Source: Carex sylvatica (lineage: Eukaryota > Streptophyta > Magnoliopsida > Poales > Cyperaceae). Taken from it: a stretch of DNA of 64,000 bases. The position numbers and the translations under genes were made by a program. Under the pieces are notes generated by a model that saw nothing but the letters and a program-made list of their open reading frames with translations, had not been told where the DNA came from and made no database searches. Below, one piece after another: positions 1-56,745 of the stretch (position 1 is its first letter; each line of letters starts with the position of its first letter). The stretch lies in NCBI GenBank assembly GCA_964058845.1, contig CAXKVR010000080.1, positions 47,118 through 111,117 on the forward strand, written 5' to 3'.

Positions 1-1756
1 TGCCAATTTATATAGCAAAAATCACTACTTTTAAGTACGAAAAATAGCAAAAAAGCATATGCAAGTAGCCATTTCCTCAAATTATTTCCCGCAAATGTGT
101 TTTAGGCTATTTTTGCATATTTTGGAAAAAGTTGCGTATTTAGGCCGAAAACGAAGCAAAAATATCATATTTAGGCCATTTCTAAAGGTAGCATCAAAAT
201 AAAGCATCACATGGAACATGTAGCACCTCACATGAAGTGCACAACATGCAACATGGTGAAAAACACAGAAAAATTGGCTAAGTCAGGTGTCGTGCGGACT
301 AGAGTTTACTGCATGCGGGCTCAACGCCTAGCTGCATGGGCACACAGATTCAATCTGTTGACTGCTTTGGTTGGATTAAATCTTAGCCGTTGATGCGAAT
401 TTCGAGCAGCAGCCTTCTAGAAGGGACGAGCTTACTTCAATGCCAAGTTTAGCAAAGTTTGAAAGTTTATTTGTGGCAGATTATTTATGGCATGATAGGC
501 TAAAAATAGCCTCCATGACCACCACTACTTCCACATGGCTACAATATTTAGGAATACTATATAAACCCCTCATGTAATAGGATTTAGTGTGCATGTTTTA
601 GTTGTGTAATTCCAGAAATTAGAGTAGAATAGTGTCCAAATTATGGAGAAGGGAAGGAAAGCTCTCGAAGTCCAGAGCAGAAGAAGAAGACGTCATCTAA
701 GGAGGCAAGAGTTCTTCAATATTTAAGGGTTGTGGTTTATGTCTTTCTTATTCCTTTTATTTTGTCATGGCTTTGAGAAGCTAATATTCTCATCTATAGG
801 GTTTGGGTGTATCAAATTCTATATTATGTCTTAATATATTTATTTTTCTCTTATGTCTATTTGAGATTTGGTTATACTTTGTATTATTTTTGAATCTATC
901 ATTGCATACATATTTCTGTTTACTATATGCCAATGTCCTCCACATACCAATAAGTGTTAAGTCATTGTATTTTGATGTGAGTGAAATACAAGTAAGAACT
1001 ATAAACACTTCGGCTAATGAGGCTTAGCAGCGGTTGAAAGATTAGGGTTAGAATGAATGGACTCCCTTAGCAGGATATCAAGTATATATTGCATGTCAAA
1101 TTATAATTAGGAATTTACTTAGTAATAAGTAGGGTTTAGGGATTCTACCTAGTGGGTAGAATGAGGATGTGATTAATTAGGTTGGCTTAAGTAAGTCAAT
1201 TAGATTACATATCATGTAACAATCTAAATTGTTCCCCACAAACCGATAGAAAGATCAGAAAACCTTCCAAATTCACATAAGACTGAAACCCTTGGTGTCC
1301 AAAGGGAATAATAGTACGGTGTGCAGGTTGCCTTGTGGGATGATCTATATCGCATGCGGTGGTGACAGTTCCGTATGCAGATGGATAAGAACATCATAAA
1401 TATATTATGATTGATTTAGAAGGAGATTACCTGAACCCTAGAGGCTCCCTATTTCTGTGATTTACTTACAATTAGCACCTCTGCCTTAAATATAAACAGA
1501 GAAAACTGTATACAAATATTTATCTATTTTATTACAACAAATAACTCAATCAAACTTGACTAGTATACGTTGTTAATCAAACTATAAACCTAGACTAGTA
1601 TACGTTGTTAATCATTTAAAGATCTATCATTGTGGATCGACACCCAACACTACTACATGGTAGGATCATGCGCTTGTGATTCGAATAAAAGTAAAATTAG
1701 GGTAACTAAGTACATTTTTATATATTCAAGATTAGTAATACCAATTTGGTCCATCA
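1..1756 (+). mobile_element. Decayed Athila-type (Ty3/gypsy) 5' LTR
   Basis: The stretch begins TGCCAATTTATATAGC and ends CCATCA directly before a degraded tRNA-Asp-like primer site (about 1761-1782), as in the intact Athila element at 26841. It holds a TATA-like box near 558 and, near its 3' end (about 1631), the GTGGATCGACACC signature also seen near the 3' ends of the other two Athila LTRs in this window. The first 530 bp recur, diverged, at 45021-45486 and 48325-48390, so it is a dispersed repeat. Two dyads (centres 1354.5 and 1375.5, 21 bp apart) carry the family word CGCATGCGG / CCGTATGCAG. Short reading frames here are not credible genes. The true 5' end may lie just outside the window. 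Confidence 0.6.
558..565 (+). promoter_or_regulatory. TATA-like box of the LTR
   Basis: TATATAAA sits in a GC-poor context and is followed by ACCCCTCATG, as expected of a core promoter in an Athila-type LTR. The assignment rests on its position inside the inferred LTR; there is no transcript evidence. Confidence 0.4.
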
Positions 1757-2610
1757 AGCTTTTTCGCGTCATTGCCGGAAATAGAGTAAGAATTCTCCAA
1801 TTATAGAGATTCTTGCACTATCATTAGGCATTTAACAACAACTGGGACTTTGTCAAAAACTTTTATTTTATGCACTTTTATTTTTACATTTTAATTTTAG
1901 TACTTTACTTTATTTTCTTTTTTTATCTTTGGGAAAAACATTATTGTTATAAATTCCCTCCTATAGGAAGAAAATTTATACATTCATATCCCCCAAAGAA
2001 AGTGTGTTCGAAGACAAGCTTGAGTTCCAGGTTTGATATGAACATAAATTTTAGAGTAGATAATTCTTTCAAACCTAATGAATTGCCAACTATACTTACA
2101 ATCTAGCTTTGAGGAAGCATCCGAATTTCTCCTACAGAAGCAACCAAACAGGTCAGCAGTCGGTCTATCGATCACCTATTGCAACAAGGTGTCCCAATCA
2201 TCATCCCCTTCTAGCATTAGGGCTCGGATAAACGATGGATAGACTCCTTAGACACTAAGAGAGGATTAGTAACTCTGTTTCATCCTCCCTGAGTTCCCTA
2301 ACAGGTCAGATAAAGGCCATAAAGGAATGTACTTGTTGCGAAAGTAAAAACCTTGTTACTCATTCTCACAAAACTTGCAAAACCATTGCAATCCGAAGGG
2401 GCATCAACCATTTACAATCTGAAAAACCCCCACAGCTATCTCCAATGCATAGGTCCTCTGAACTAATGCCGCATGCGGCATCCAGAGACCACATACGAAG
2501 TAACCCTACACCGTATGGCTCTGAAAAAGGTAAAATCATGCCGCATGCGATCTCAGATGAACCGCTAAGCATACATAAGACTCCATGAGCTCAGCAGATG
2601 GCCTAGGAAA
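1757..2610 (+). mobile_element. Leader/internal remnant of the same Athila-type element
   Basis: It starts with a mutated primer site (TCGCGTCATTGCCGG compared with GGCGCCGTTACCGG in the intact element). A T-rich leader follows that resembles the leader of the element at 28300. No gag frame survives. Between 2468 and 2550 are more CCGCATGCGG-type dyads with centres at 2473.5, 2493.5, 2515.5 and 2545.5. The element is cut off where the 81-bp tandem array begins, at about 2620-2636. Confidence 0.5.
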
Positions 2611-2635: not shown

Positions 2636-5600
2636 AATCTACAAATAATCCTAATTCAACACTCCAATTGAAGGTGTTTGCAGCATTCTAATAGTGTCTC
2701 CATATGGCAAGAGAAGAGGGTGGTTGCAACCCTAATACAACACTCCAATTGAAGGCCTTTACAACACTCTAGAAGTGTCTCCAAATGGCAAGGGAATAAG
2801 GTAATTTCAACACTAATACAACACTACAATTGAAGGTCCTTGCAGCACTCAAGTAATGTTTGTAGATGACAAGAGAATATGGTAGTTGCAACCCCAATAC
2901 AACACTCCAGTTTAAAGTCTTTGCAGCACACTAGTAGTGTCTCCAGATGGCAAGAGAAGAGGGTGGTTTCAACCCTAATACAAGACTCCAATAGAAGGTA
3001 GTAGTGTCTCCATGTGGTAAGATAAGATGGTAATTGAAGCTTCCATACAACACTCCAATTGAAGGTCATTGTTGCACTCTTATAGTGTCTCTAGATGACA
3101 AGAAAAGAGGCTGGTTTCAACCCTAAAACAAGACTGCAAAAGAAGGTGTTTGCAACACTCTAGTGTTGTCTCCTATTGGGAAGATAAGATGGTAATTGCA
3201 ACCCCAATACAATACTTCAATTGAAGATCATTCTTGCACGCTTGTAGTATCTCTATATGGTAAGAAAGAAGGGTGGTTGCAACCCAAATATAACACTCGA
3301 ATTGAAAGTCTTTGCAAAACTCTAGTAGTGTCTCAAGATGACAAGAGTAGAGCATAGCTGCAATCCAAATACAACACTCGAAGTGAAAGTCTTTATTTCA
3401 CTATAGTAGTATCTCCATATGGCATGAGAAGTAAGTGCTCGCAACCCTAATACAAGACTCCAATTGAAGGTCTTTGCTGCACTCTAATAGTGTCTCCAAA
3501 TGGCAAGAGAAGAGGGTAGTTGTAACCCTAATACAACACTCCTGTTGAAGGTATTTGTAATACACTAGTAGTGTCTCCAAATAGGAAGAGAATAGTGTAG
3601 CTCAAATTCTAATATAACACTCCAATTCAAGGTCTTTGTAGCACACTAGTAGTGTCTTTATAAGACAAAATAAGAGGGTAGTTGCAACTCTAGTTCAACA
3701 CTACAATTAAAGGTCTTCGCAGCACTCTTGTTGTGTCTCCAGATGGCAGCAGAAAAGGGTAGTTTTAACCTTAATACAACACTCAAATTCATGGTGTTTG
3801 CAGCACTCTAGTAGTGTCTCCATATGGCAAGAGAAGAGGGTGGTTGCAACTCTAATACAACACTCTAATTGATGGATTTTACAGCAATCTAATACTGTCT
3901 CCAAATGTCAAGGGAAGAGGGTAGTTGCAACCCTAGTACAACACTTCAATTAAAGGTCTTTGTAGCACTCTAGTAGTGTATCCATATTGCATGAGAAGAG
4001 GATACTTGAAACCCTAATACAACACTCCAATTCAAAGTCTTTGTATCACACTAGTAGTGTCTCCAAACGGCAAGAGAACATGATTGTTGCAACCCTAATA
4101 CAATACTACTATTGAAGGTCTTTGTAGCACAATAATGTATCCATAAGAAAACAAAAGAGGGTAGTTGCAACCCTAATTCAACACTCTAGTGGTGTCTCCA
4201 ATGACAAGACAAGAGGGTGTTTGCAACCCTAATACAATACTCCAATTGAAGGTGTTTGCAGCACTCTAGTATTGTCTTCATATGGCAAGAAAAGTGGGTG
4301 GTCGCAAACCTAATGCAATACTTCGATTAAAGGTTTTTACAACACTCTAGAAGTGTTTTCAAATAAGAAGGGAAGTGGGTAATTGCAACCCTAATACAAC
4401 ACTCCATTTTATGGTCTTTACAGCACTCAAGTAAAGTTTCCCTATGACAAGAGAATAGGGTAGTTGAAACCCCAATATAACACTCCAGTTGAAGGTCTTT
4501 GCAGCACACTAGTAGTGTCTTCAGATAGAACGAGAAGAGTAAAGTTGCAACCCTAATACAACACTCTGATTTAAGGTGTTTGCGTCACTCTAGTAGTGTC
4601 TCCAGATGGAAAGAGAAGAGGGTGATGGAAATCCTAATACAACACTCCAATTGAAGGCTTTCGCGGCACACAAGCAGGGTCTCCATACGGCAAGAGAAGT
4701 GGGTGCTCGCAACCCTAATACAACATTTCAATTGAATGTCTTTGCAGCACTCAAGTAGTGTTTCTAGATTCCATGAGAAAAAGGTTGTAACCCACTAATA
4801 CAACACTTCAATTTAAAGTCTTTCTAGCACACTAATAGTGTCTCGAAATGACTAGAGAAGAGAGTATTTGCAACTCTGATACAACACTCAAATTGAAGGT
4901 CTTTGCAGCAGGCTAGTAGTGTCTCCATATGACATAACAAGTAGGTACTGTCTCAATATGACTAGAGAAGATGATAGTTGCAACCCCAATTCAACACTCC
5001 AATTTAAGGTGTTGACAACACTTTAGTAGTGTCTCCAAATGACAAAGAAAGAGGGTGTTCGCAACCCTAATACAATACTCCGAGTGAATGTCTTTGAAGC
5101 ACTCTAATAGTGTATCTGTACGGCAAGAGAAGATGATAGTTGAAATCCTAATACAACACTCCAATTGAAGGTGTTTGCAGCATTCTAGTAGTGTCTCCAG
5201 ATAGAAAGAGAAGAGGGTGGGCGCAACTCCAATACAACACTCCAATTGAAGGCATTTGCGACAGACTAGTAGTGTATTCATATGTCAAGAGATGAGGATA
5301 GTTGCAACCCCAATACAACACTCCATTTAAAGGCCTTTTCAGCACTCAAGTAGTGTCTCCAGATGGCAAGAGAAGAGGGTGGTTTCAACTCTAATACAAG
5401 ATTCCAATGGAAGGTGTTTGTAACACTCTAATAGTGTCTCCAGGTGGCAAGATAAGAGGGTAATTGCAACCCCAATACAACACTCCAACTGTAGGTCTTG
5501 GCTACGTTCTAGTAGTATCTCCAGATGACAAGAGTAGAGCGTAGTTGCAATCCAAAAACAACACTCGGGTTGAAAGTCTTTGTTGCACTGTAGTAGTGTC

Positions 5601-8600
5601 TCCATATGGCAAGAGAAGTAAGTGGTCGCAACTCTAATACAATTCTCCAATTGAAGGTCTTTGCAACCCTCTAATTGATGGCAAGGGAAGAGGGTAGTTG
5701 CAACCCAAATACAATACTTCAATTCAATGTCTTTGTAGCACTCTAATAGTGTCTTCAAATGGCAAGGGAAGAGGGTAGTTGCAACCCTAATACAAACACT
5801 CCAATTGAAGGTCTTTGTAACACTCTAGTAATGTCTTTATATGGTAAAAGAAGAGAGTAGTTGCGACTCTAATAAAGTATTTCAATTAAATGTCTTGGTT
5901 GAACTCTCGTAATGTATCCATATGGCAAGAGAAGAGGTTACTTGCAAACCTAATACAGCACTCAAATTGAAGGTGTTTGCTGCGTTCTAGTAGTGTCTCC
6001 ATATAGCAAGAGAATAGGGTAGTTGCAACCCCAATATATCACTCCAATCTAAGGTTTTTGCAGCACACTAGTAGTGTCTCTATATGGAAAGAGAAGAGGG
6101 TGGTTTCAACCCTAATACAAGACTCCAATAGAAGGTGTCTGTAACACTCTAATAGTGTCTCCAGGTGGCAAGATAAGAGGGTAATTGTAACCCTAATACA
6201 ACACTCCAATTGTAGGTCTTTGTTGCAGTCCAGTAGTGTCTCCATATGGTAAGAGAAAAGTGTGGATGCCACTTGGATACAACACTCCAATTGAATGTCT
6301 ATGCAACACTCCAGTAGTGTCTCCCAATGACAAGAGTAGAGCGTAGTTGCAATTGAAATAAAACACTCAATTGAAAGTCTGTGTTTCACTCGAGTAGTAT
6401 CTCTATATGGCATGAGAAGTAGGTCGTCTAAACGCTAATACAATACTCCAATTGAAGGTCCTTGCAGCACTCTAGTAGTGTCTCCAAATGTCAAGGGAAG
6501 AGGGTAGTTGCAACCCTAATACAATACTCCAATTGAAGGTCTTTGTAGCACTCTAGTAGTGTCTTTATATGGTAAGAGAAGAGAGTGGTTGCAACCCTAA
6601 TACAACATTCCAATTAAAGGTCTTTGTTACACTCTAGTATTATATCCATATAGCAAGAGAAGAGGGTAGTTGCAACCCTATACAGCACTCCAATTGAAGG
6701 TCTTTGTAGCACTCCAGTAGTGTCTTCATATGTTAAGAGAAAAGGGTGATTGCAACCCAAATGCAACACTCCAATTGAAGGCCTTAAAGGCACCCTAGTA
6801 GTGTTTTCAGATTACAAGAGAAGTTGGTGGTCGCAATCTTAATACAACACTCCAATTGAAGGTATTTGCAGCACTCTAATAGTGTCTCCAAATGGCAAGG
6901 GTTAAGAGTAGTTGCGTCCCTAATACAACACTCCAATTGAAGGTCTTTGTAACACTCTAGTAGTGCATCCATATAGAAGGGAAGAGGATAGTTACATCCC
7001 TAATACAACACTCCAGTTTAAGGTGTTTGCAGCACTCTAGTAGTGGCTCTAGATGGAAAGAGAAGAGGGTGATGGAAACCCTAATACAAAACTCCAATAA
7101 GGCCTTCACGGCGCATTAGCAGTGTGTCCAGACGACAAGAGAAGTGGGTGGTTACAACCCTAATACAACACTTCAATTGAATGTCTTTGTAGCAATTGAG
7201 TAGTGTCTCCATATGACATGAGAAGTGGGTCGTCACAACCCTAATACAATTCTCCAATTAAAGGTCTTTGCAGCACTCTAATAGTGTCTCCAAATGGCAA
7301 GGGAAGAGGATATTTGCAGCCCAAATACAATCCAGTTCAAGGTATTTACAGCACACTTGTAGTGTATCCATATGGCAAGAGAAGAGAGTAGTACAACACT
7401 CCAATTGAAGGCCTTCGCAGCACACTAATAGTCTTCAAATGGCAAAGGTAGAGGTAGTTGGAACTCTAATACAACACTCCAATTGAAGGTCTTTGTAACA
7501 CTCTAGTAGTGTCTTTATATGGTAAAAAAAAAGAGTGGTTGCGACCCTAATAAATATTCCAATTTAAGGTCTTTGTAGCACTCTCGTAGTGTATCCATAT
7601 GAAAAGAGAAGAGGGTAGGTGCAACCCTAATACAACACTCCAATTAAAGGTGTTTGCAGTTATAGTAGTGTCTCCGTATGGCAAGAGAAGATGGTAGTTA
7701 CAACCTTAATACAACACTCCAATTGAAGGTCTTTGCGGTACACTAGTAGTGTCTTCAGATTGCAAAAGAAGTGGGTGGTCGCAATCCTAATGCAACACTC
7801 CAATTGAAGTTCTTTGCAGAACTCTAATATTGTCTCCAAATGGTAGGTGCAACCCTAATACAACACTCCAATTGAAGGTCTTTGTAACAATCTAGTAGTG
7901 TATCCATATAACAAGAGAAGATGATAGTTACAACCGTAATACAACACTCCAATTTAAGGTGTTTACAGCTGTCTAGCAGTGTTTGCAAATGGAAGAGAAG
8001 AGGATGGCGGCAACCCTAATACAACACTCCAATTGAATGTCTTTGTGGCACTCTAGTAGTGTCTCCAAATGACAAGAGAAGACGGTAGTCGCAACTTTAA
8101 TACAACACTCCAATTGAAGGTATTTGCAGTACACTAGTAGTGTGTCCATATGGAAAAACAATAGGGTAATGTCTCAATATGACTAGAGAGGAGGTTAGTT
8201 GCAACCTTAATTCAACACTCAAAATGATGGTGTTTGTAGCACTTTATTTGTGTATCCAGATGGCAAGAGAAGATGGTGGTGACAACCCTAATACAACACT
8301 CCAATTGAAGGCCTGTGCAACACTCAAGAGTGTCTCCAAATGGCAAGGGGAGAGGATAATTTCATCATTAATACAACACTACAATTAAAGGTCTTTGCAT
8401 CACTCAAGTAATGTTTGTAGATGACAAGAGAATAGGGTAGTTGCAACCCCAATACAACACTCTAGTTTAAGGTCTTTGCAACACGCTAGTAGTGTCTCTA
8501 GATGGCTAGAGAAGAGGGTGGTTTCAACCGTAATACAAGATTCCAATAGAAGGTGTTTGCAACACTCTAGTAGTGTCTCCAGGTGGCAAGATAAGATGGT

Positions 8601-11600
8601 AATTGTAGCTGCCATAGAACACTCTAATTGAAATTCGTTGTTGCACTCTTATAGTGTCTCCATATGGTAAGAGAAGAGGGTGGTTGCAAACCAAATACAA
8701 CACTTCAATTGAAAGGCTTTGCAAAACTCTAGTAGTGTCTGCAGATGACAAAAGTAGAGCGTAGTTGCAATCCAAATACAAGACTTGAATTGAAAGTCTT
8801 TGTTGCACTCTTGTAGTGTCTCGATATGGCAAGTGAAGAGGGTAGTTGCAACTCTAATTCAACACTCATTCTTCGATGAAGCAAGAGTAACACTAATCCG
8901 AGAATAGTACTATTCTTTTGAGCTATTCAATGTTTGGATGGAGCAAGAATAGCACTAACCCACTGTACTCTGTTTGTCTTATATGGGTTCACTATTCTAC
9001 TAACCCAACGAAAAGTTGGGTTAACAATTCTCAAACTCGTGATTAGCTCTATTCTTACTCTATTAATTGTTTCATCCAAACGTACCCATAGAGTCTATAG
9101 ATGGTCAAAGAAGATGATGGTTGCAACTATAATACTATAGTCCAATGGAAGAATGCCTTTGGAGCACACTAGTAGTGTCTCCAGATGGCAAGAGAATTGG
9201 TGATTGCAACCCTAATACGACACTCCAATTGAAGGTCTTTGCAATATTCTTTAAGTGTCTCCAAATGACAAGGGAAGAGGTAGTTGCAACCCCAATACAA
9301 CACTCCATTTGGAGGCCTTTGCAGCACACAAGTAGTGTCTCCAGATGGCAAGAGAAGAGGGTGGTTTCAACTCTAATACAAGATTTCAATGGAAGGTATT
9401 TGTAACACTCTAGTAGTGTCTCCAGGTGGCAAGATAAGAGGGTAATTGCAACCCCAATACAACACTCCAACTGTAGGTCTCTGCTACGTTCTAGTAGTGT
9501 CTCCAGATGACAAGAGTAGAGCGTAGTTGCAATCCAAAAACAACACTCGAGTTGAAAGTCTTTGTTGGACTGTTGTAGTGTCTTCATAAGGCAAGAGAAG
9601 TAAGTGGTCGCAACTCTAATAAAAATCTCCAATTGAAGGTCTTTGCAACACTCTAATTGAGTCTTCAAATGGCAAGGGAAGAGGGTTGTTGCAATCCTAA
9701 TACAACACTTCAATTGAATATCTTTGTATCACTCTAATAGTGTCTCCACACTCCAATAGAAGAGGGTGGTTGCAACCCAAATACAACACTCCAATTGAAA
9801 TTCTTTGCAAAACTCCAGTAGTGTCTCCAGATGACAAAAGTAGAGCGTAGTTGCAATCCAATTGAAAGTCTTTGTTGCACTCTAGTAGTGTCTCGATATG
9901 GCATTTGAAGTTGGTGGTCACAACACTAATACAAGACTCCAATTGAAGGTCTTTGTAGCACTCTAATAGTGTCTCCAAATGGCAAGGGAAGAGGGTAGTT
10001 GCAACCCTAATACAACGCGCAAATTAAAGTTCTTTGTAGCACACTAGTAGAGTATCCATATGGGAAGAGAAGAGGGTTGTTGTAACTCTAATACAGCACT
10101 CCAATTCAAGGTCTTTGTAGCACACTAGTAGTGTCTGGGAAGATAATAGTGTCGTTCAAACTCTAATAGAACACTCCAATTCAAGGTCTTTGTAGCACAC
10201 TAGTAGTGTTTCTATATGACAAAATGAAAGGGTAGTTGCAACTCTAATTCCACATAACAATTAAAGGTCTTCGCAGCACTCTAGTTGTGTCTCTAGGTGG
10301 CAGTAGAAGAGGGTAGTTGCAACCCTAATACAACACTCCAATTGATGGATTTTACAGCAGTCTAATACTGTCTCCAAATGACAAGGGAAGATGGTAGTTG
10401 CAACCCTAGTGCAACACTTCAATTGAAGGTCTTTGTAGTACTCTAGTAGTGTATCCATATGGCAAGATAAGAGGGTAGTTGTAACTCTAATACAACACTC
10501 TAATTGAAAGTCTTTGTATCACACTAGTAATGTCTCAAATGGCGAGAAAACATGGTACTTGCAACTCTTATGCAACACCTCAATTGAAAGTCTTTGCAGG
10601 ACTCTAGTTGTGTCTCCAGATGGCCCGAGAAAAAGGTGGTTGTATCCTCAGTACTACACTTCAATTGAAGGTCTTTGTAGCACACTAGTCGTGTCTCCAA
10701 ATGACAAGACAAAAGGTTAGTTCCAATCCTAATACAGCACTCCAATTTACGGTGTTTGCAGCACTCTAGTATTGTCTTCAAATGGCAAGAGAAATGGGTG
10801 TTCGCAACCCTAATACAGCACTCCAATTAAAGGTCTTTGCAACACTCTAGAGTTGTCTCCAAACAAGGGAAGTGGGTAATTGCAACCCTAATAAAACACT
10901 CTATTTTAAGGTCTTTACAGCACTCAAGTAAAGTTTGCAGATACCAAGTGAATAGGGTAGTTGAAGTTCTTTGCGACACATAGTGTCTACATATGACAAG
11001 ATAAAAGGGTAATTACAACCCTCATACAACACTCCAATTGAATGTCTTTTGTTGCACTCTAGTAGTGTCTTTATATGGTAAGAGGAGAGGGTAGTTGCAA
11101 CCATAATAAAACTTTCCAATTAAAGGTCTTTGTTGCACTCTAGTAGTGTGTATCCATATGGCAAGAGAAGAGGGTAGTTGCAACCCTAATTCAACACTCC
11201 AATTTAAGGTGTTTGCAACACTCTGTGTGTCCAGATGGAAAGAGAAGAGGGTGGTGGAAACCCAACTACAACACTCCAATTTAAGCCCTATCTGACACAC
11301 TAGCAGTCTCTCCATACAGCAAGAGAAGTGGGTGGTCGCAACCCTTTTTAGTACTCTAGTAGTGTTTCTAGATGGCACAATAAAATGTTAGTTGTAACCC
11401 TAATACAACACTTCAATTGAAAGTCTTTGTAGCACACTAATAATGTCTCCAAATGATGAGAGAAGAGGGTGGGGGCAACCCTAATACAACACTCCAATTG
11501 AAGGCATTTTCAGCAGTAGTGTATTCATATGGCAAGAGAAGAAAATAGTTGCAACCCTAATACAACACTCTAATTGAAGGTCTTTGCAGCACTCCAGTAG

Positions 11601-12606
11601 TGTCTCCAGATGGAAATAGAAGAGGGTCTTCACAGCACTCTAGTAGGTTCTGCAGATGGAAACCCTAATATAACACTACAATTGTAGGCCTTTGTGACAC
11701 ACTAGCAGTGTCTCCAGACGGCAAGAGAAATGGGTGGTCGCAACCCTAATACAACACTTCAATTCAATGTCTTTGCAACACTCTAGTTGTGTTTCTAGAT
11801 GGCACAAGAAGAGGGTAGTTGTAACTCTAATACAACACTTCAATTGAAAATCATTCTAGCACATTAATAGTGTCTCCAAATTACAAGAGAAGAAGGTAGT
11901 TGCAACTCTATTACAACACTCCAATTGAAGGTCTTTACAACATACTAGTAGTATCTCCATTTGGCAAAACAAGCGGGTACTGTCTCAATATGACTAGAGA
12001 AGAGGATAGTTGCCACCCAAACTCAACTCTCCAATTGAAGGTGATTGCAGCACTTTAGTAGTGTCTCCATATGGTAAGAGAAGAGGGTGGTTACAACCCT
12101 AATACAACACTCCAATTAAAGGTCTTTGTTGCACTCTAGTTGTGTATCTGTATGGCAAGAGAAGAGGATAGTTCCAACCCTAATACAACACTCCAATTAA
12201 AGGTGTTTGCAGCACTCTAATAGTGTCTCCAGATGGAAAGAGAAGAGTGTGGGGGCAACCCGAATACAACACTCCAATTGAAGGCATTTGCAGCAGACTA
12301 GTTGTGTCTCTAGATGACAAACGAAGTGGGTGGTCGCAATCCTAATACAACACTTCAATTAAAGGTCTTTGCAGCACTCTAGTAGTGTCTCCAGATGGCA
12401 AGAGAGGGCAACATTAAAATTAATGGTCTTTGTAGCACTCTTGTAGTGTATCCATATGTCAAAAGAAAATGGTAGTTGCAACCCTAATACAAAAATTCAA
12501 TTAAAGGTGTTTGCAGCACTCTAGTAGTGTCTCCATATGACAAGAGAAGAGGGTAGTTTCAACCCTTATACAACACTCTAATTGAAGGCCTTTGTAGGAC
12601 CCTAGT
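2636..12606. repeat. 81-bp tandem array, block 1 (about 120 diverged monomers)
   Basis: A monomer of about 81 bp is repeated head to tail; landmarks such as ACTCCAATTGAAGG recur at 2661, 2742 and 2823. On the plus strand it reads roughly CAACCCTAATACAACACTCC, AATTGAAGGTCTTTGCAG, CACTCTAGTAGTGTCTCC, ATATGGCAAGAGAAGAGGG. Copies differ by many substitutions and small indels. Because 81 is divisible by three, the minus strand shows long frames with a 27-residue period (core LECCKDLQLECCIRVATTLF), up to 192 aa at 9135-9713. Stops and frameshifts cut them at irregular places and I see no promoter or conserved start, so I treat it as a minisatellite. Multi-monomer blocks are themselves duplicated (5341-5700 and 9323-9690). 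Confidence 0.93.
8865..9130. mobile_element. MITE-like inverted-repeat insertion in the array
   Basis: The 81-bp monomers stop at about 8865 and resume near 9135. The intervening DNA has terminal inverted repeats GTTTGGATGGAGCAAGAATAG (8932 on) and, inverted, TTTCATCCAAAC ending at 9081, with subterminal AGTAAGAATAGAGCTA. A further partial left-arm copy (GATGAAGCAAGAGTAACACTAA) lies at about 8875. There is no coding capacity. A non-autonomous DNA transposon is the best reading; the superfamily is unclear and I could not fix a target duplication. Confidence 0.55.
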
Positions 12607-15099
12607 TGTCACACCCCGCGGCCCCACGAGGCGCGACAGGTGCCTCCTGCCGTAGACATACGGTTGCCCGTATGCCTACAAGGCAATTACGATATAATAG
12701 AAAGTAAAACACAACCAAACAAAACAAACAAATAATTAAGAAAAACAGTTCACAAATCCCAACTGGTCAGGTAATATCATACAAAACCCGTATCTCGATG
12801 GATACGCATCACAAAATGACATAGAGAATACATATATATATATACAATCAAAACATAAATATATACATGTCTCTAGTCACAATACCAGACAAGCTAAGCA
12901 GCGGTGAAACCAGGCCTACCGACCTCGTGTCTTTCTCGGATCCGCCGAACCGGAACCTGAAAAATTAACCCAAAAGAGGGGGTGAGAATTGAATTCTCAG
13001 TGCGATAAGTTGCCACAAATCGTTCCTGGACTTGCAATCACAGATTACATTCAAAAATAAAACACAAATATAGCTCAGATCAGTTTATAATCATATATAA
13101 ACATGAATGCACAAACCCGACAACATTTATCCAAATGAAATCACAGTTCAGGAATTGCCAAGATGAAATTCAAGCACACAATATTTGGTTTAACTCGATT
13201 TCAGAATATCTAGTAGTAACTACAGATGTTCCACCAAACTGGACCCCAATTCGTTCCCACTCATCTGTAGGGTTACAGACACCTACAGACGACTGCGCCA
13301 GGTAAAACCTTATCTCATGACACTCATCTGTAGTTACAGGCTTAACTGTTTAATTAAAAGTCTGGTTCCAATTCATATCCGGAAAATCCATATAAATCCA
13401 ATTGACCATCCAAACGCATTACCCCCTGGGTAATGCCTCCGATACACAGTCACCCATAACCAAAATCATAATACAAAGTCACTTACCCCTCGTCCCAACC
13501 GGTACTGGGAACTGCCGAGGGCCAGACGATCTAAAGCTTTAGAACACTGGGCGTCAATAGTCCATGCATAGACTTTGACAAATCCGGATTCACCCCCTGG
13601 GTGACATCATCACGGTGGATGACAATAATACCATATCCACCAACCGATGGTGATATAAAGCACGGTGACTTTAATTCCAAAATCAGATCATTCAGATCAA
13701 CACAAATAATAACCATACCAGCATGCAAATCAATCAGATAAAACAATTCGAGTTTTACTTTATTTGGGCAATGCAATGCATATGAATCGAAACACAGTTT
13801 AATTTCTGAATATAAAATATCAGATAAGTCCAGAAACCCCGCACCTGAGTAATAGCGCGCTCGACTAAGGCTCAGGCGTCTCGAACGACCCAGAAATCCT
13901 TTGCCTCGTATGATTACCACCTATTGCATACATTGATTCGATTAAAGCGTTTGATTACTATCCGATAGGTTATCACGAGTTAATTCAAGTTAAACACGGT
14001 CTAGGGTTGGTATTCGGGTCTTATTTATATAGGTTCATACTTAAGTTCAAGGAAATTAGGGTTTAAATAGACACAAGGATCAAGTAGGGCATTCTGCATT
14101 TTATATTACGGCCCGAGGCCAGTTTGCTGCGGCCCGCAAAGCTCCCAGCTGAGCACCCGAATTCTTTTCCTCACCTCTTGCGGCCCGAAGTCATGATCCT
14201 TGCGGCCCGCAACCAAATGACACCCGAAAAGTCCGAGAACACTTCGGGAGACCTGCTTGGCTTGCGGCCCGCAACCCTCACTGCTCAACACACTTCCAAT
14301 TTGGTTAAGTACCTTTTCTCCTTGCGGCCCGTAGGATAAGTTATTGCGGCCCGCAACATTGCACAAATTTCAGGTTTTCGGTTTAGTTTTCGATTCTTTT
14401 CGATCGGGGTTCGATTGGTTAACATATATTGTTACGGTTATCAAATTCAAGGGTATCTACATAGCTAGAATCATCGATAATTAACACCATTACCAAATCC
14501 TAATTCGAATTCCAAATTCAATTGGTAGGTTTAACCAAATAACAAGAATCGAATGTTTTACGAAGTTATAACTCGATTAATTCCCGAATTTCACACACAA
14601 AATACCAAAATTCATTTCCATTACGACCCAACCCCAAAATCCTGGTTCAATTCCAAATTCCACAAGCAAATCAATCCGATTATCGAGTTATTTCAAATCA
14701 AATTCGAATTCGAATTTCACCAAAAATATAACAAATCAATAGAATTAGGGTTTCCAAGAAATTACAAGGGAGAAAGATATACCAAATTGAAGCTTTAGAA
14801 TCGATCAAGGATCGTCAATTCAGCTCGAATCTCGATTTTTCGACAAGTTCGATCAGTTTCCGCGCTCGATTTCTCTCTCTCTCTCTCTTTCCCTTTTTTG
14901 GTTCGGCCAACCCTAACCCTCCCGAAATTTTTCTTCAATTAATTCGGTGGAAAATGAAAGAAGAAGAAGAAAGGAAATATTAATAATTGGAATTTTGCAC
15001 ATATACCCCTCCATTTTCTTAATATTACCAAACTTTGATAATTTCACAAATAAGCCCTTATGTAAATGTTTTATTTATTATAAAATTCATAATGTCACA
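12607..15099 (+). mobile_element. Solo LTR (TGTCACACCC type), 2.49 kb
   Basis: The element runs from TGTCACACCCCGCGGCC to ATAATGTCACA. It is flanked by a 5-bp duplication CTAGT (12602-12606 and 15100-15104) that restores the interrupted monomer. There is no primer site, polypurine tract or coding frame, so it is a solo LTR rather than a full element. A diverged relative lies inverted at 45487-48319; both share a subterminal block (GGTGAGAAT, CTCAGTGCGATAAGTTGCC). The TGTCAC start and length over 2 kb fit Tekay/Del-type chromovirus LTRs, an inference from family habit. A TATA-like stretch (TATTTATATAGG) lies near 14023, CT-repeats at 14873-14887, and the dyad cluster at 14105-14357. Confidence 0.75.
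14105..14357. repeat. Paired TTGCGGCCCGCAA dyads in the solo LTR
   Basis: Seven copies of a near-palindrome with core TTGCGGCCCGCAA are centred at 14112, 14133, 14184, 14206, 14268, 14328 and 14350. Six form three pairs with spacings of 21, 22 and 22 bp; the seventh stands alone. The sequence between the pairs is unrelated, so this is not a simple tandem duplication. Confidence 0.85.
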
Positions 15100-16460: not shown

Positions 16461-16461
16461 A

Positions 16462-41142: not shown

Positions 41143-41159
41143 TATATATATATAGAGAG

Positions 41160-42545: not shown

Positions 42546-42599
42546 CTCTCTCTCTATATATATATATATATAGATATATATATAAAGAGAGAGATAGGA

Positions 42600-43015
42600 A
42601 GAGAGAGAGCTGGGCTATGGTACATTGCAATGTATAGCTTTCTTTGTACATTGGACTATAAATCACGTGATCGAAGTCCAAATAACTGATCCAAATCGTA
42701 TATCTTGTTGTCCATATTAATATGTGTTTGGAGACCAAATTTTATATTTTTTTGGAATTATTTTACTATTTTTATAGATTTATTGAAAATCGTTGTTTTT
42801 TTATGGTTCAGATTTGTCTGAAAACAGCGATTTTCAATAAATCCAAAAAAAAGTAAACAAATTCCAAAAAATATAAAATTTGGTCTCCAAATACATATTA
42901 ATATGGACAACAAGATATACGATTTGGATCAGTTATTTGGACTTCGATCACGTGATTTATAGTCCAATGTACAAAGAAGGCTATACATTGCAATTTACCA
43001 TTGCAATTTAGATAT
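42600..43015. mobile_element. Fold-back MITE, outer module B, at the palindrome centre
   Basis: The arms GGGCTATGGTACATTGCAATG, GTACATTGGACTATAAATCACG and TGATCGAAGTCCAAATAACTG are matched by the inverse copy up to about 43012. The centre of symmetry is near 42808-42811. It is flanked by TA/GA microsatellites. Confidence 0.75.
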
Positions 43016-43019
43016 AGAT

Positions 43020-43029
<10 letters not shown>

Positions 43030-43050
<21 letters not shown>

Positions 43051-43480
43051 TTGACTTGGGTGAGTCATGGCTCACCAATCGTTGGTGCTCCACGGTATAT
43101 TTTTATTTTGAAAGTCCAAACAACCGATCCGAACCGTTAGATGTGATCTCTATATTGAAATGTGCTTAGAGACTAAATTTTATATTTTTTGGAATTTTTT
43201 TACTATTTATTAAGCCACTTTGAAAATCTAAAAATCCGAGTAGACAGTAAAAAACAGTAAAACATTTTGGACCGCCGGATCAGTGATTTTTAAAGTGGCT
43301 TAATAAATAGTAAAAAAAATCCAAAAAATATAATATTTGGTCTCCAAGCACATTTTAATATGGTAAACAAGATGAACGGTTCAGATCGGTTGTTTGGATT
43401 TTTAAAATATCTAAAATGAGCCATGGAGCACCAACGCTTGGTGAGCCATGGCTTATTTTAGCCATCTCATATATATAGGA
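43030..43480. mobile_element. Fold-back MITE, outer module C (inverted partner)
   Basis: Mirror image of 42118-42545: GGTGAGTCATGGCTCACCAA at the left and GCACCAACGCTTGGTGAGCC at the right. Both arms match the partner in inverse order. Confidence 0.7.
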
Positions 43481-43880
43481 ACCTGCTAGCATGCTACGCG
43501 TAGCATAGAGGGACTCCGTACAACGGCTCAATATTCGACTTTTCAAAATCCCAATGGCCGATCTGAACCGTTCATCTTTTTCTCTATAATAATATGTGTT
43601 TGGAGACCAAATTTTATATTTTTTGGAATTTTTTTTACTATTTTTTTAGATTTATTGAAAATCGCTGTTTTTTATGGTCCAGATTTATTGAAAACAACGA
43701 TTTTCAATAAATCTAAAAAAATAGTAAAAAAATTTCAAAAAATATAAAATTTGGTCTCCAAACACATATTAATATGGAGAACAAGATGAATGGTTTGGAT
43801 CGACCGTTAGGATTTTGAAAAGTCGAATATTGAGCCATTGCACGGAGGCCCTTTATGCTATGCATAGCATATTATTACAC
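43481..43880. mobile_element. Fold-back MITE, outer module D
   Basis: The left end is CTAGCATGCTACGCGTAGCATAG with GGGACTCCGTACAACGGCTC. The right end has the diverged inverse. Its inner core is the same as in the other cluster members, and its left arm mirrors 42060-42117. Confidence 0.7.
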
Positions 43881-44204
43881 CCCAATTTGGAGGTTAATGA
43901 TTTGGCCAAAAACATATACGGTGCTCACCTCGTCTCTCCTCCGAACAGTAATGGTTCCCTTCTGCTTACTTTCCATTTTCTCCTTTCTGGGGCAGATGAA
44001 TTTGCTCTAACCGAGCGGTCTGAGGTAAAGCTCTCTTTCGCAAAATGAATTACACTTTCACTCCCTCTGCGTACCTTCAATTGGAGCACAGCCTAAGCCA
44101 ATATTCCCCCCTCCCATAAATGGGTCGTTGATTGGCTTAGCGGCCCGAGTAAATGTGGAATTTTTCATAATGTGGGGTGTTTTGGTTTAATTTTTTTAAA
44201 GGGT

Positions 44205-44642
44205 ATAACGTTATAATTTCAGTCTAAGTTAAAACAAGTTAATTTTCTAATTTCAAAGTCTGAAAAGTTGATCCGAACAGCTCAATATGTTCTCCATATT
44301 AAAATGTGTCTAGAGATCAAATTTTATATTTTTTGAAAAAAATTTACTATTTATTTAGATCGGTACAAAATCATTATTTTCATATAATTCTGGACCATCC
44401 AAAACAGTGATTTTGGACCTATTTAAATAAATAATAATAAAAACTTCAAAAAATATAAGATTTGATATCTAGGTACATTTTAATACGGAGAACATGTTGT
44501 GATTTTGGACCTATTTAAATAAATAATAATAAAAACTTCAAAAAATATAAGATTTGATATCTAGGTACATTTTAATACGGAGAACATGTTGAGCGGTTTG
44601 GATTAACTTTTCAGACTTAGGCTGAAATTACAACGTTATGAC
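44205..44642. mobile_element. Fold-back MITE, outer module E, with internal duplication
   Basis: The ends AACGTTATAATTTCAGTCTAAG and CTTAGGCTGAAATTACAACG are inverse. The core AGCTCAATATGTTCTCCATATT is a diverged form of the cluster core. A 92-bp segment is tandemly duplicated (44408-44499 and 44500-44591). Confidence 0.75.
44408..44591. repeat. Exact 92-bp tandem duplication
   Basis: Two adjacent copies start with TGATTTTGGACCTATTT at 44408 and 44500 and end with GAGAACATGTTG. By eye they are identical, so the duplication is recent. Confidence 0.92.
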
Positions 44643-44689
44643 ATTAATCGAACTCTCTCTCTCTCTCTTTGTATATATATATAGAGAGA

Positions 44690-45018
44690 GAGAAAGAGAA
44701 CGAGTTGGACTATAGTGAGTTACAAAGTAAGAGTCTTGTTTTACTTGCCGCTCATATTTTTTACTTTTGAAAGTTCAAAAAGTCAATCCAAATTGTTCAA
44801 CATGATCTACATATTGAGATGTGCTACGAGACCAAATTTTATATTTTAAAATTTTGTTACTATTTCTTTATAATTTTTAAAATAGCTGTTTTTTATGGTC
44901 CATAATCCATCCAAAAACAATGAGTTTTCTACCCATCTAAAAAAATAGTAAAAAGATTAAAAAAAGTGTAAAATTTGATCTCTAAGCACATTTTGATGTG
45001 GAGATCACATTGAGTGAT
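44690..45018. mobile_element. Fold-back MITE remnant
   Basis: The left arm (AAAGTTCAAAAAGTCAATCC, ACATGATCTACATATTGAGATG) and right arm (GTGGAGATCACATTGAGTGAT) pair. The right terminus is lost where the Athila LTR fragment begins at 45021. Confidence 0.55.
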
Positions 45019-45020
45019 AA

Positions 45021-45486: not shown

Positions 45487-48319
45487 CGTTACGTTACAGA
45501 ATTTTAACAATTAATTTTTAAATGTTTTAAAAGCAAAAATTAAAAATCGTGCTAACGAAATAGAAATTTAAACCTTAAATAATGTCTCCCTCGGTAAGCA
45601 AGTTAAGTGTGAATTGAAACCGCATCGAAAATACGTAGTTCTGAACCTTTATAGGTCCAGTTCGTCCGCACTGGTGGTGAGTGCAGATGGTTGATCCATA
45701 CTGACTCCAGTTTCCTTTTTAAATTATGTTATGTATTATACCAATGCGTCCGCACTTATAAATTCTGTATTGGCTGAATTTTCTGAAATCTGACAAGTTC
45801 TGACTGCGGGTGTCTTGACCCGCACTAAAATTTCAATGCGGACGCATTAGCCTCGAACTTTTTCTTGTGAAGTGTCATTTTGATGAAAATTTGACAAAGT
45901 ACTGAGTGCGTCCGCACTGTATGTGAGTGCGTCCACATTCGTGTATATTTCTGTGTTTTCTGAGCTGCTGAAATTATGCTAAGTGTTGAGTGCGGGTGGC
46001 CGACCCGCGCTAAAAATGAGTACGTCCACACTGATGAATTTTCCTGTGATTTTCCAAGTTCTGAATAACTGTCTATGGTTGATGCGGGTGACTGACCCGC
46101 ACTGAAAGTGAGTGCGTCCGCACTGAAAGTGAGTGCGTCCGCACTCAGAGGGACTTTTAACCAAAATTCCATATTTTCTTTTTCCTTTCTCTCTTTCTCC
46201 TCCGTCCCTTTTCCCTATGCCTTGTGTGTACTCCGCCCAAAGAGAAGAGAAAAGAGAGAAATAGTTCTCTCTCCCTCTAAAACTCGCTATAACCCGTAAA
46301 ATCGAAGGTGAGACCGAGAAATTGGGCGTAGATCTCGTCTAGCTCTCCAAATTGGTACTCATTTCTCTCCTCTCTTCTCACCAAAATCCAGATTTTTACT
46401 ATTCTAGGGTTTTTGCTAGAAATCCGATATTTGTGCATACATTGCTAGTAATCGAGCTTTCTCGAGCTTCCTTGTTGTTTATTTGTCGATTATTTTCTCA
46501 ATTTTATCTTGATTTTGAATTTCCATTTCTGGAGCTTTTGGTACCAAATCCAAAATTGGGAAATGTGGTTGATTGATTAGGCTAACCCGACCAAATCGAC
46601 GTGTAATCAGTAAACCTCTCCCTCAACCTTGACATCTAGCGATTGATTCGAATTTCGACCAAATTAGGGTTTAATTAATCGGTAAATTGAATTGTTACGA
46701 GAACCAAAGTAGTGAAACGGTAAATTGATATACCCACAAATAGACCTAATTAAAATTTTGTATGGTTTAGAGGACCCAGATGTAAAGTGTGTGAATTTTA
46801 TAGAATGTTAGTAAGAAAGAAGAAATCAAAAGAATCGATACCAAAACATAGGAATGTATACGCCATTAATGAACTCGAGTAAGTATCTCGACTGTGGAAT
46901 CAGAATTAAATCAAATATACATGTAATATAGGTGTAGACTCAGTCGAGCAAGAATTCGCAGGACATTTCGAGATGTCTGATATGTAATTTAGCGATCCGC
47001 TCATCGTAAACAAGTGTGAAATTCTTGGACTTGTTTGATATTTTATTTTTAAAAATTTGCTTTATTCGTTTGTCATGTTGAATGTCTGATTGTTGCATCA
47101 TTGAATTGCGTAAATCATTTGCATAGCCCAATCAAATTAAACTCGAATTGACTTGACTTGAATGATTTGCATGCTTGTATGGTTATCAGTTGTATCAATC
47201 TATTATAATTTGATTATGGTTGAGAGTCATCACGAATTGCTGATTGAGAATGTATATGTGAACGGATTTACAAAGTTGAGCTATATAGCTGACTTAGATC
47301 CTGTACATGTGTGTGGATTTACGAAGTTGAGCTGTATAGCTGACTTTGAGCTCGGGATCCTTCTAGCGCTTTAGGTGAATGGTCCTCAGTTTTCTCAGTA
47401 TCGGTTGGGATGAGAGGTGAGTGATTATATTGATATGTGGATTGAAATCGTGGGTGACAAGTGTAACGTCTGTGGCTCGATGGCATTCTCCTACGTGTTA
47501 ATGCGTTTGGACAGTCAATTGAATATGACGACAATTGGAATTATTTCAAAGTGAATTTTCTTTATATGATTTGAACCATACCTTAGGAAATGGTTAAGCC
47601 AAGCAATTACAGATGGGTGTCAGATAAAGGGTCCAGCTCGGTGGAACGTCTGTAGGTGTCAGTAATCCTACAGACGAGGGTCAGATAAAGAGTCCAGCTC
47701 GATAGAATATCTGTAGTTGCTACAAGCCCTAATAAATCGAGTTAAGCCCAATATGTGTTTGTTTGAACTTCATCTTGGAAATTCCGTTAATTGTGATTCA
47801 TTTGATTTGTTTGTTGTCGAGAATATGCATCCCTTTAAATTATGAATATGTATATGTTTGAATTGCTATTGTATGGGTTTTCATTTTTGAATATGGAGTT
47901 TGATTGCAAGTCCAATAATCTAACTGTGGCAAATTTCGCACTGAGGATTTATTCTCACCCCACCCTTCGGGTTATCTTATAGGTTCTGGTGTGACTGAGT
48001 CTGGGGAGGTACGTACTCAGTAGGCCTCTGGTATAGGTCACCATTACCTCAGTAGATATTTGGTTAGTTGGCTAGAGATGTATATATTATTTTTGATCGT
48101 ATAACTCTCTATGTCATACCTGATAGTCGGTATCCATATGTGATACCTTGATGTATTATACTTTTACCATACTCATGTACTCAGATTTATATATATGCAC
48201 TTGTTTTATATTTATTTGTCGTGAATTTCTGAATGTAATGTTAATTGCCTTGTAAGCATACACGGAATTGTATGCTTACAGCGGGGGACTGTCGCCATCC
48301 GTGGCCGCAGGGTGTGACA
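45487..48319 (-). mobile_element. Solo LTR (TGTCACACCC type), 2.83 kb, minus
   Basis: On the minus strand it starts TGTCACACCCTGCGGCC at 48319 and ends GTAACGTAACG at 45487; the last base probably decayed from A. A 5-bp duplication TTAGA lies at 45482-45486 and 48320-48324. It is related to 12607-15099 by its start and a subterminal block (GCAAATTTCGCACTGAGG, inverse). It contains no coding frame or primer site. The dyad cluster is at 45659-46145. A Tekay/Del-type chromovirus origin is an inference from end sequence and length. Confidence 0.75.
45659..46145. repeat. Paired AGTGCGTCCGCACT dyads in the solo LTR
   Basis: Repeated near-palindromes read AGTGCGTCCGCACT or the variant TGCGGGTGNC...GACCCGCACT. 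Centres 45911.5/45932.5 are 21 bp apart, and 46096.5/46117.5/46138.5 form a 21-bp ladder. Others lie at 45665.5, 45749.5, 45819.5, 45841.5, 46004.5 and 46025.5. Short frames across this block are a by-product of the repeats. Confidence 0.85.
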
Positions 48320-51027: not shown

Positions 51028-51849
51028 CTAACATTTCTCAAAATCTAAAACTGTCTTACTACGGATGATTATAGCCTTTAATTCATCCTCAAACCCATGC
51101 TTCTCATTGTAAAGCTTCACAAAGCGTTCCATTGCCTTCCTCATTATATGCCACTGACAGTATCTATGGACAATTTTTGAAAAAATCAACTCAATTGCCT
51201 TCCTTATCGCGGGATCTTGGTCGGTAATAATGGCAGAAGGATGTTTGTCGTACATTGTCTCTAACCATGTTTTGAAAAACCACCAAAATTTATTCGTTGT
51301 CTCGCATTTGAGAAGAGCCATGCTAAATAAGATGGATTGACGGTAGTTGTTGACTCCAATGAACGGTGCGAAAGACATGTTGTACTTGTTTGTCTGATAG
51401 GTGGTGTAAAAAGTCACGACATCACCGAACTCTTTGTATGCTCTCCTTTCTCTACCATCAACCCAAAAAATATTCTTGACAACACCATTCTCATCTGTCA
51501 ATACTGAATAAAAGAACTCGGGATCCTCTTGCTTCTGTTTGAAATATATTAAAAGTTGTGTGAACATCAACCCCTACGAGCTTTACATTGTCCCCCACTA
51601 TTAGATTGCTTATATCTTTTTTTTTGAACCTAGCATTCCCCTTACCATCATTTTCAATAGCTATATATTCCATAATTTGTGATGTTCTCACATTTTGAGC
51701 ACTCAATTTACGAATGATCTCCTTCTGACTTGTCATCATGCACTTATGGGATCGCAAATCTTGAATCTTCAAAGGGCTCGTGATTAGCACATGATTGTGA
51801 TCCTCCACAAAGATGCTCACTCTTTCCATTTTCCACTTTTCATAATTAT
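51028..51849 (-). pseudogene. FAR1/MULE-transposase pseudogene, middle fragment
   Basis: The fragment continues the FAR1 DNA-binding region (KWKMERVSIFVEDHNHVLIT, then LRSHK) into the MULE transposase core. That core has NIFWVDGRERRAYKEFGDVV, TYQTNKYNMSFAPFIGVNNY, ITDQDPAIRKAI and HRYCQWHI. Proteins of this kind are either transcription factors of phytochrome-A signalling (FAR1/FRS) or transposases of Mutator-like elements. A frameshift lies near 51550-51570 and a stop follows FEKC at 51028. The 5' part is separated by a 4.9-kb solo LTR. The gene is dead. Confidence 0.85.
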
Positions 51850-54800: not shown

Positions 54801-56745
54801 TTCTTTACATAAATAGTTATAATAATCTTATTTATTTGTCATGATAGTTACACATACATTTAATGTTACATTTTATATTCACATCTTAACAAGTAAAAAT
54901 TACTTATTATAGTTAATGTCATTCTTTGCTAATTATTTTATGAACCTTTAATTTAGCATTTAAGTGGCCCATTTACCAACATTTCAATTCAAGGCCTCTT
55001 TACAATTATTTCAATTCACCTATGGCCGGCCCTATACTCAAAATCTCATCATTTTACATCTAGGCCCTTGCACTTAATTCATTTACACAATTTAGGGGTA
55101 ATTAGTATATCAAGCTCTAAACTTTTAAAATCTCGCAAAATGGTCCCTGTCAGTTCAAAGGCTGGTATACACACAAAATCAGCACCATACCAGTAGTATA
55201 CTGGGCTGGTACCACTGGTACCAGCACTTCACATTTCACACATAGCAACACAGCCAAGCACAAGCAAGACCAGCAAAACAGAGAACAAGCACAGGTCAAG
55301 GCAATAAGTCAGAGGCAAACAGAACCAGCACACATACACCACAGCACATTTACCAGACAGACAGAAACGGAGAAGGGCCAAAAATCAGAACAGAACACGA
55401 GGCGCAGGCAACAACAGAACCAAACCCAACAGGTCAAGAAAGGTCTCAACAAGGCACCACAAAGCACAACCCAGGAACATCACTCGTCGTTCAATTCAAG
55501 CCTTGACGACGCACAAGTCAGTACCTTGGCCGGAAAAATCAACAACCCGCGGAAAGGTAATTTATCTATTTGAAACCCGACAAGAAAACCCCAGCCAATT
55601 TAAATGGGATATTTCAAAGATTTACCCGATTTAGCAAAGCAATAGAGAGGGAGATGGGAAGTGGCCGGTATCAAGGAAGCACTTCGCTTCACGGCCGTTA
55701 ACTAGCAAATTCACCACCACACCGAGGCAACAGAAAAATTAGAAGCACCAACAGAGTCATCACCAGAATGCACTACCGAATCCTTAACGGGTCGGGTAAT
55801 TACCAATAACCAAAGGAAAATGGAAAAGAGGGGCAATGGCAGAAATTCTCAACACATGAGCAAGGCAAAGAGGCAGCAACAGAAACGAGAGAGTTAGAGG
55901 GGTTATTTATAACCGGGATAGGTAGAAGAGGGGCTCAGTCAACCTTCTCAGAGAGCAGGTGCTCGAAGGGACAGTGGAGTCGTCGGAAGTACATAACCCT
56001 GACAAGCACACGATGGCCAAGACTTTTTAAACAAGGCAAAAGAGAGGGAGGGGGCGGGCTTCTCCTTTAATTTCGTCTCCAGGAAGGAGAAATGGAGAGC
56101 GAGAAAGAGCTCGGTGGGGTGTGCTAGCCAGCGACAGAGGAGGCAGAGAAGAGAGGGGCGCCTCTCTCGCGCGGACAGGAGGGAAAGAAGGAGACGGGGA
56201 AAGAGAAGAGGGGCTGGGTCCCGCTGTCGGTGAGAAAAGGAAAGAAGAGGGGGAGGGTCTTGGACCCGAAAATTTTATTCAATGGAGTTAATTCTCCCTT
56301 TTTCCATTAATTCAATCCAATGGATCAGATGGTTCTAAAATTTGTGCTAGATGTATATCCAACGGTTCAAATAAATCCAAAAGTAATATAGGCTCTAATT
56401 GATATGAATTGAATGAGTAAAATTCGATTCTCACGAAATTGATTTGAAATGTGTTACTAATTATTCGAATTCTTATAGTTCAAATTTATAACTTGGTGGA
56501 TTCGATATTAGATCTTCTATAATCTTATATATATTTATATATAATTATCTATTCAAATTTCATTTCTAAATCTTTAAATAGTTAATGTACATGATTTCAT
56601 AATGTATTTATATTTCAAAATTTTAGATTCATCAGTCAGATAAAATCTGATCGATCATTAATAAAAAATATATATATATATATATATTTAAGCATAAAGA
56701 TCCTTTTAATCGATTAATCATGTTTTAAAATTTTGGAATATAACA
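51850..56745 (+). mobile_element. Solo LTR (TGTCACACCCC type), 4.9 kb, inside the FAR1 pseudogene
   Basis: It begins TGTCACACCCCAAACCAGG and ends GGAATATAACA. A 5-bp duplication ATTAT (51845-51849 and 56746-56750) lies within the FAR1 reading frame. There is no reverse-transcriptase frame, primer site or internal LTR copy, so it is best read as an unusually long solo LTR; a non-autonomous element is possible. It is AT-rich in 53.6-55.0 kb and GC-richer at 55.4-56.3 kb. Dyads are at 55163-55223. The short frames at 52398-52945 are not convincing genes. Confidence 0.7.
55163..55223. repeat. GGTACC-type dyad cluster in the 4.9-kb solo LTR
   Basis: Near-palindromes related to CTGGTACCAG are centred at 55166.5, 55188.5 and 55210.5 (steps of 22 bp). 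A second interleaved set lies at 55198.5 and 55219.5 (21 bp). Confidence 0.7.

Follow-up and report, generated by a model that had tools for sequence, protein, structure and literature searches.

Does each family of long terminal repeat (LTR) retrotransposons in a plant genome carry a private near-palindromic word, set in pairs about 21 bp apart, and what would read it? This question was raised by a 64,000-nt piece of the Carex sylvatica genome (the window), for which an earlier note had claimed such words in every LTR family. We addressed it in the window and in 64 Mb of genome sequence (950 contigs) of this one plant. The main case is an intact Athila element at 26841-38664 of the window (family A), in which the word TACGGNCCGTA occurs in 22 exact copies as compared to a shuffled mean of 0.0.

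Results

Word pairs in an intact Athila element

The assignment of this element to the Athila lineage of Ty3/gypsy retrotransposons is based on its LTR pair, its gag-pol order with the integrase following RNase H as in gypsy elements, and a third open reading frame (ORF) between pol and the 3′ LTR. The LTRs (26841-28300 and 37277-38664, + strand) were located by self-BLAST and are ~99% identical. The third ORF (35007-36341, +) matches the ATHILA ORF-1 family PF03078 with 67.4 bits at a cut-off of 20.2, and its predicted structure comprises a core at about residues 40-330 and a long C-terminal helix at residues 377-437. In the map of the element, two-mismatch words were retained only if accompanied by a better-matching word at 19-22 bp. 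Nearly all words belong to pairs or to one triplet with 20-21 bp between centres; partners were listed neither for the exact word at 36853-36863, between the third ORF and the 3′ LTR, nor for a one-mismatch word at 34608.

The words had been described as LTR features, a view that proved too narrow, as copies are also found before gag, in gag and pol linkers and around the third ORF. Three pairs, each with 21 bp between centres, are located in the 5′ LTR at 27014-27045 (TACGGCCCGTA and TACGGACCGTA), 27115-27146 (TACGGTCCGTA and TACGGGCCGTA) and 27949-27980 (one mismatch in each word), and the 3′ LTR holds pairs at 37450/37471, 37551/37572 and 38315/38336, the last word with two mismatches. The interval between 5′ LTR and gag contains a pair at 28511-28541 (20 bp). 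Within the gag ORF (28584-30416, +; PF03732 at residues 114-206), two pairs follow the core domain at 30020-30050, in a linker from residue 479, and at 30122-30152, both with 20 bp and in codon phases 2 and 1. The pol ORF (30453-33392, +) encodes protease-like, reverse transcriptase (RT), RNase H and integrase zinc-binding domains. Its protease-RT linker carries two pairs at 31047-31077 and 31149-31179 (20 bp, codon phases 0 and 2, one mismatch in the second and in the first word, respectively) and its RNase H-integrase linker a triplet at 32828-32880 (21 and 21 bp, codon phase 2, one mismatch in the middle word). The ORF of the integrase core (33402-34208, +; PF00665) and the third ORF are free of words; one pair lies 3′ of the former at 34419-34450 (21 bp), and a decayed pair (two and one mismatches, 21 bp) immediately upstream of the latter at 34956-34987.

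The words in gag and pol thus occupy all three codon phases 0, 1 and 2. Moreover, four exact words each were counted in gag and pol, whereas synonymous reshuffling gave means of 0.0 and 0.13, respectively. Both results indicate that the selected object is the nucleic acid and not the peptide, and a function of the words at the DNA level is very likely.

Spacing of like dyads against controls

In a de novo search, two dyads 13-60 bp apart were scored as a pair of like dyads if their four arms matched in at least 21/24 positions; mirror repeats and local Markov shuffles served as controls. The sample (264 kb) combined the window with 20 loci of ten kb each, drawn at regular contig numbers; a satellite array of the window (2640-12620 and 15080-16480) was dropped from this test as well as from the word and event tests described below. 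At a distance of 21 bp we found 39 pairs of like dyads as compared to 2 mirror and 1.0 shuffled pairs, at 20 bp 9 (3 and 1.0) and at 42 bp 18 (6 and 1.0), while the remaining distances pooled gave 134 real, 114 mirror and 33 shuffled pairs. The 21-bp spacing thus exceeds chance.

In the event test the Athila element was also dropped and one event was counted per 1.5-kb block and distance. With at least 22/24 matches, 11 real, 2 mirror and 0 shuffled events fell at 20-22 bp and 0, 1 and 0 at 23-25 bp. With 21/24 matches the contrast between real and mirror events was weaker (17, 7 and 1.4 at 20-22 bp; 6, 10 and 1.8 at 23-25 bp), and some excess remains at 38-60 bp too. Pairs with at least 22/24 matches at 20-22 bp occurred in three of the 20 loci (L011, L013 and L019), two of which, L013 and L019, represent the same family.

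The spacing was further determined genome-wide for pairs of exact words separated by gaps of up to 32-34 bases (4-16 for the TACGG word TACGGNCCGTA; 5-15, later 2-32, for CCGTTGCAACGG), and the reversed-pattern control gave 0 pairs for each word. For TACGGNCCGTA 401 pairs were found, and all 50 among the matches listed have a distance of 20 or 21 bp; for the TGCGG word TGCGGNCCGCA (82 pairs), 45 of the 50 matches listed lie at 22 bp and 5 at 21 bp. For the other words every match was evaluated: CACGGNCCGTG gave 49 pairs, 8 at 20 or 21 bp and 41 at 40 bp with a variant word in between; GTGCGNNCGCAC 33 pairs (24 at 21, 6 at 20, 2 at 22 and 1 at 43 bp); CGCATGCG 20 pairs (14 at 21, 2 at 42 and one each at 19, 16, 24 and 33 bp); and CCGTTGCAACGG two pairs at 20 and 21 bp. 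An exact pair of ATGCGANTCGCAT was rejected as a family marker, with 0 pairs in 64 Mb. Equal-length spacers among distinct typed pairs showed a mean identity of 0.42-0.51; the spacing is thus retained while the spacer sequence drifts.

Words of other families in the window

The seven words of the earlier note were located exactly and then with up to three mismatches per region, and compared with shuffled sequence. Six of them exceeded the shuffled means and had neighbouring centres 19-23 bp apart: TTGCGGNCCGCAA (6 sites against 0.2, two such gaps), ACCGTTGCAACGGT (5 against 0.03, two gaps), GATGCGANTCGCATC (11 against 0.03, three gaps), ATACGGNCCGTAT (35 against 2.3, 15 gaps), AGTGCGTCCGCACT (7 against 0.0, two gaps) and, with a modest excess, CCGCATGCGG (9 against 2.5, two gaps). 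The claim of private paired near-palindromes therefore stands for these six; the GGTACC-type word at 55.2 kb, CTGGTACCAG, is unsupported (3 sites against 0.7, no gap of 19-23 bp). Exact copies are fewer than the earlier note implied: the window lacks any of CCGTTGCAACGG and contains two of ATGCGANTCGCAT at a distance of 1120 bp, which apparently reflects decay of both families there.

The CCGCATGCGG family (1351-2550) shows a pair at 1354.5/1375.5 (21 bp), a word at 2473.5 with a decayed neighbour at 2493.5 (20 bp) and one at 2545.5. Centres of the TTGCGGNCCGCAA family (14127-14356) lie at 14133, 14184/14206 (22 bp), 14268 and 14328/14350 (22 bp), and those of decayed CCGTTGCAACGG words (19748-19967) at 19754.5/19774.5 (20 bp), 19836.5 and 19941.5/19960.5 (19 bp). 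Two inverted LTR-like copies (23116-26585, 89.8% identical by self-BLAST) carry GATGCGANTCGCATC-type words in three 21-bp pairs, and the AGTGCGTCCGCACT family (45659-46145) has seven words, including pairs at 45911.5/45932.5 and 46117.5/46138.5 (21 bp). Outside 28-37 kb the window yielded no Athila proteins, so the other elements were classed via relatives or left unclassed.

Further repeats in the window include a minisatellite-like array at 2646-16461 with a period near 81 bp, as judged from self-BLAST offsets, which is broken at about 12610-15095 by other sequence carrying TTGCGG words. Many copies of ~260-300-bp repeats in both orientations, partly self-palindromic, occupy 40718-45014 and 60199-61109. 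By eye, minus-strand ORFs at 21101-22949 resemble the reverse transcriptase of a long interspersed nuclear element and ORFs at 62431-63921 amino-acid transporters; a piece of a MULE transposase (PF10551) lies at 51028-51570.

Relatives of the Athila element and a copia family

A gag similarity search yielded 150 matches, from which seven loci were picked. Pairs at 20-22 bp were present in five of these: CACGG words in L028 (family B), GACACGG words in the close relatives L032 and L033, TTGCGG words at 22 bp in L030 and GATGCGA words at 20-21 bp in L034. The extension of the rule to every LTR family did not hold, as another Athila-type family (L029/L035; L035:860-1060) has the AT-rich private dyad GCAAAANNNTTTTGC every 33-34 bp instead, and L031/L036 showed a single weak 20-bp match without CG. 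Nor do the words differ completely, as had been stated; a CGG-N-CCG or GCG core is common to most of them.

Exact words of family B differ from those of family A symmetrically in both arms, and family B also holds mixed words with one A-type and one B-type arm. In its gag ORF, too, words are spaced by 20 bp and fall into two codon phases. A PF03078 ORF and words occur together in one element directly in family A, and by contig positions in family B (C298) and the TTGCGG family (C31); viral contigs scanned for the PF03078 ORF and Athila RT yielded no relative. Word clusters are not a general feature of the region 5′ of the third ORF: family A has one, family B has asymmetric 21-bp repeats there, L040 one near-exact word, and the short stretches of L039 and L041 none.

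True tandem arrays of a 21-bp unit with a TTGTACGGGTCGTACAA-like palindrome were observed in L013 (6398-6461) and L019 (396-480), beside a stretch similar to the family B locus L028, and another true 21-bp array was found at C388:25100-25195. In L037, a locus picked for having a pair, GTGCG words occur ~1.85 kb 5′ of gag and a second time after another 6.4 kb, a layout that two LTRs would produce.

In L001, an exact CCGTTGCAACGG pair (centres 1506.5/1526.5) precedes a TATA-like sequence at 1723 by ~200 bp and is followed by the primer site TGGTATCAGAG and a gag of PF14223, which classifies this family as copia. The architecture is hence common to gypsy elements and at least one copia family, as had been proposed.

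Discussion

A possible reader of the words

The private dyad array of each family may be the DNA target of a sequence-specific protein that binds as a dimer; two such dimers would lie adjacent on one helix face, as 20-22 bp between centres correspond to two turns. We regard such a dimeric reader as likely, and binding to one face would fit the data best. In Athila, arrays in the LTRs, the 5′ untranslated region, the protein-tolerant gag-pol linkers and around the third ORF could allow the protein to coat the whole element. The likeliest reader would be the element's own PF03078 third ORF product, acting like the VANC proteins of VANDAL transposons: it would find copies of its own family and protect them from silencing marks or clear these marks, and words and protein would drift together, which would prevent cross-activation between families.

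An element-encoded anti-silencing reader of this kind is plausible, with a probability of roughly 40%. The earlier suggestion of a family-diverging factor is partly supported. Observed were the words, their geometry, their DNA-level placement, their privacy, the ORF in the same element and a weak fold similarity to VANC21; from these we infer binding, dimerisation, the role of the ORF and the anti-silencing effect. For decades, to our knowledge, no function has been assigned to Athila-type or env-like ORFs. More tentatively, Athila third ORFs might be VANC-like anti-silencing proteins rather than envelopes, and so perhaps might those of other "env-carrying" plant LTR retrotransposons, Sireviruses for example; each would read a private paired-dyad barcode spread over the element including its coding linkers, with protein and barcode co-diverging.

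Other explanations were also considered. The pairs might be promoter or enhancer palindromes for host transcription factors, an idea already put forward for the repeated motifs (RMs) of Sireviruses and for other cis-regulatory arrays in LTRs, each family having captured a different host factor site. This would suit the copia family of L001, with its pair 5′ of a TATA-like sequence and before primer site and gag and no Athila-type ORF known, as well as the Sirevirus RMs, palindromes that are private, mostly CGG-CCG-cored and located upstream of the TATA box (PMC2829016). However, pairs in the gag-pol linkers of family A, in all codon phases and at both ends of the element, go beyond promoter needs; host sites would be expected to be common to unrelated families, and a rigid 20-22-bp pairing that holds for different words points to a single class of reader, so that we consider host factors rather unlikely. 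Athila elements are often located in pericentromeres, and CG-rich words across the entire element could be read, as dyads on one helix face, by a host silencer or by a factor for integration or centromere tethering. Yet successful copies should lose a silencer site rather than keep and multiply it, and tethering would presumably favour one shared word, which makes this explanation improbable.

A function in RNA, as word-word hairpins, packaging or dimerisation signals or folds generating small interfering RNAs, would draw on the ability of self-complementary words 20-22 nt apart to pair with each other, and on the excess of maize small RNAs over Sirevirus palindrome clusters (PMC10760457, citing Bousios 2016). 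Selection for stems predicts mostly complementary opposing centre bases, but among 66 typed pairs these were complementary in 3 and identical in 37. (The 66 pairs exclude the 43-bp pair, duplicates that were exact or on the reverse strand and a few near-duplicates; expected values, inflated by mixing pairs of both strands, were not used.) Single words, in addition, leave loops of 0-2 nt, and arrays of at least three words at about 21 bp are unlike simple hairpins; the hairpin option of the earlier note is thus disfavoured and RNA structure in general quite improbable. Still less probable is a functionless by-product of 21-bp tandem duplication, that is, minisatellite expansion. It would account for the true 21-bp arrays and the asymmetric repeats 5′ of the family B ORF, but most distinct typed pairs combine unlike spacers with intact words and spacing, and words recur in separate inter-domain linkers and different frames; duplication therefore explains some arrays only.

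Comparison with known systems

Among the open-access papers listed by our searches, no title or abstract opening dealt with paired palindromes at 21 bp in LTR elements or with a link between VANC and Athila. We met no earlier report of the paired 20-22-bp dyad rule in the literature searched, whereas private palindromes of the RM type are already known. Sirevirus RMs, located in the LTR and upstream of the ENV-like gene, resemble the present words in being private to each element and palindromic, mostly with a CGG-CCG core, in 8-32 copies (PMC2829016, Bousios et al. 2010); TACGGNCCGTA with its copies in one element and the TGCGGNCCGCA and CACGGNCCGTG pairs show the same trait. The hosts differ: RMs are called specific to Sireviruses (copia) and absent from classic retrotransposons (PMC2829016), while the words described here belong mainly to Athila gypsy elements, family A among them, and the CCGTTGCAACGG family is copia. 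The account of RMs in PMC2829016 moreover describes neither a fixed 21-bp pairing nor gypsy elements, and its only coding copies are extra ones at the beginning of ENV, reported for two elements, in contrast to the 20-22-bp pairs inside gag and pol. Even without a protein, a 20-22-bp paired-dyad rule obeyed by different words, also in coding sequence, strongly constrains the binders of plant retrotransposons.

The third ORF of family A resembles the sunflower Athila aORF (PF20167/PF03078) in position, domain family and end helices with beta blocks between; the latter is predicted to be nuclear, its function is left open, and its description includes neither a binding motif nor a relation to VANC (PMC11728184). 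An influence of the Athila third ORF on Athila methylation is likewise called open (PMC12844716). Our PF03078 structure model resembles VANC21 weakly, and VANC21 was missing from the list obtained with the domain only. Sequence searches of the PDB with the PF03078 profile and DUF1985-like pieces returned coiled-coil-like matches, chance matches or nothing. For DUF1985 (PF09331), no Pfam hit was obtained, and an hhalign comparison of low power (four sequences) was negative; in this genome DUF1985 had three matches, all below the family cut-off, and a homolog search with one of them led to one protein.

VANC21 (PMC5735166) and VANC6 (PMC10398659) bind family-specific motifs in tandem repeats, and the VANC/VANDAL system shares with the present one dense, family-specific short motifs gathering in such repeats and, as proposed here, an evolving element-encoded protein (PMC5735166, PMC10398659). 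VANDALs are Mutator-like DNA transposons, in contrast to the LTR retrotransposons studied here. Their motifs, YAGTATTAY and AGTTGTCC/AGTTGTAC, are non-coding and are not presented as dyads in these accounts, those of VANC21 having one orientation. VANC binding and methylation loss were demonstrated experimentally (PMC5735166, PMC10398659), whereas the corresponding activities are here proposed from sequence. If third ORFs do read the words, a predicted binding site comes with every family, which makes the idea directly testable, and LTR retrotransposons would possess a self-recognition and anti-silencing system parallel to that of VANDALs.

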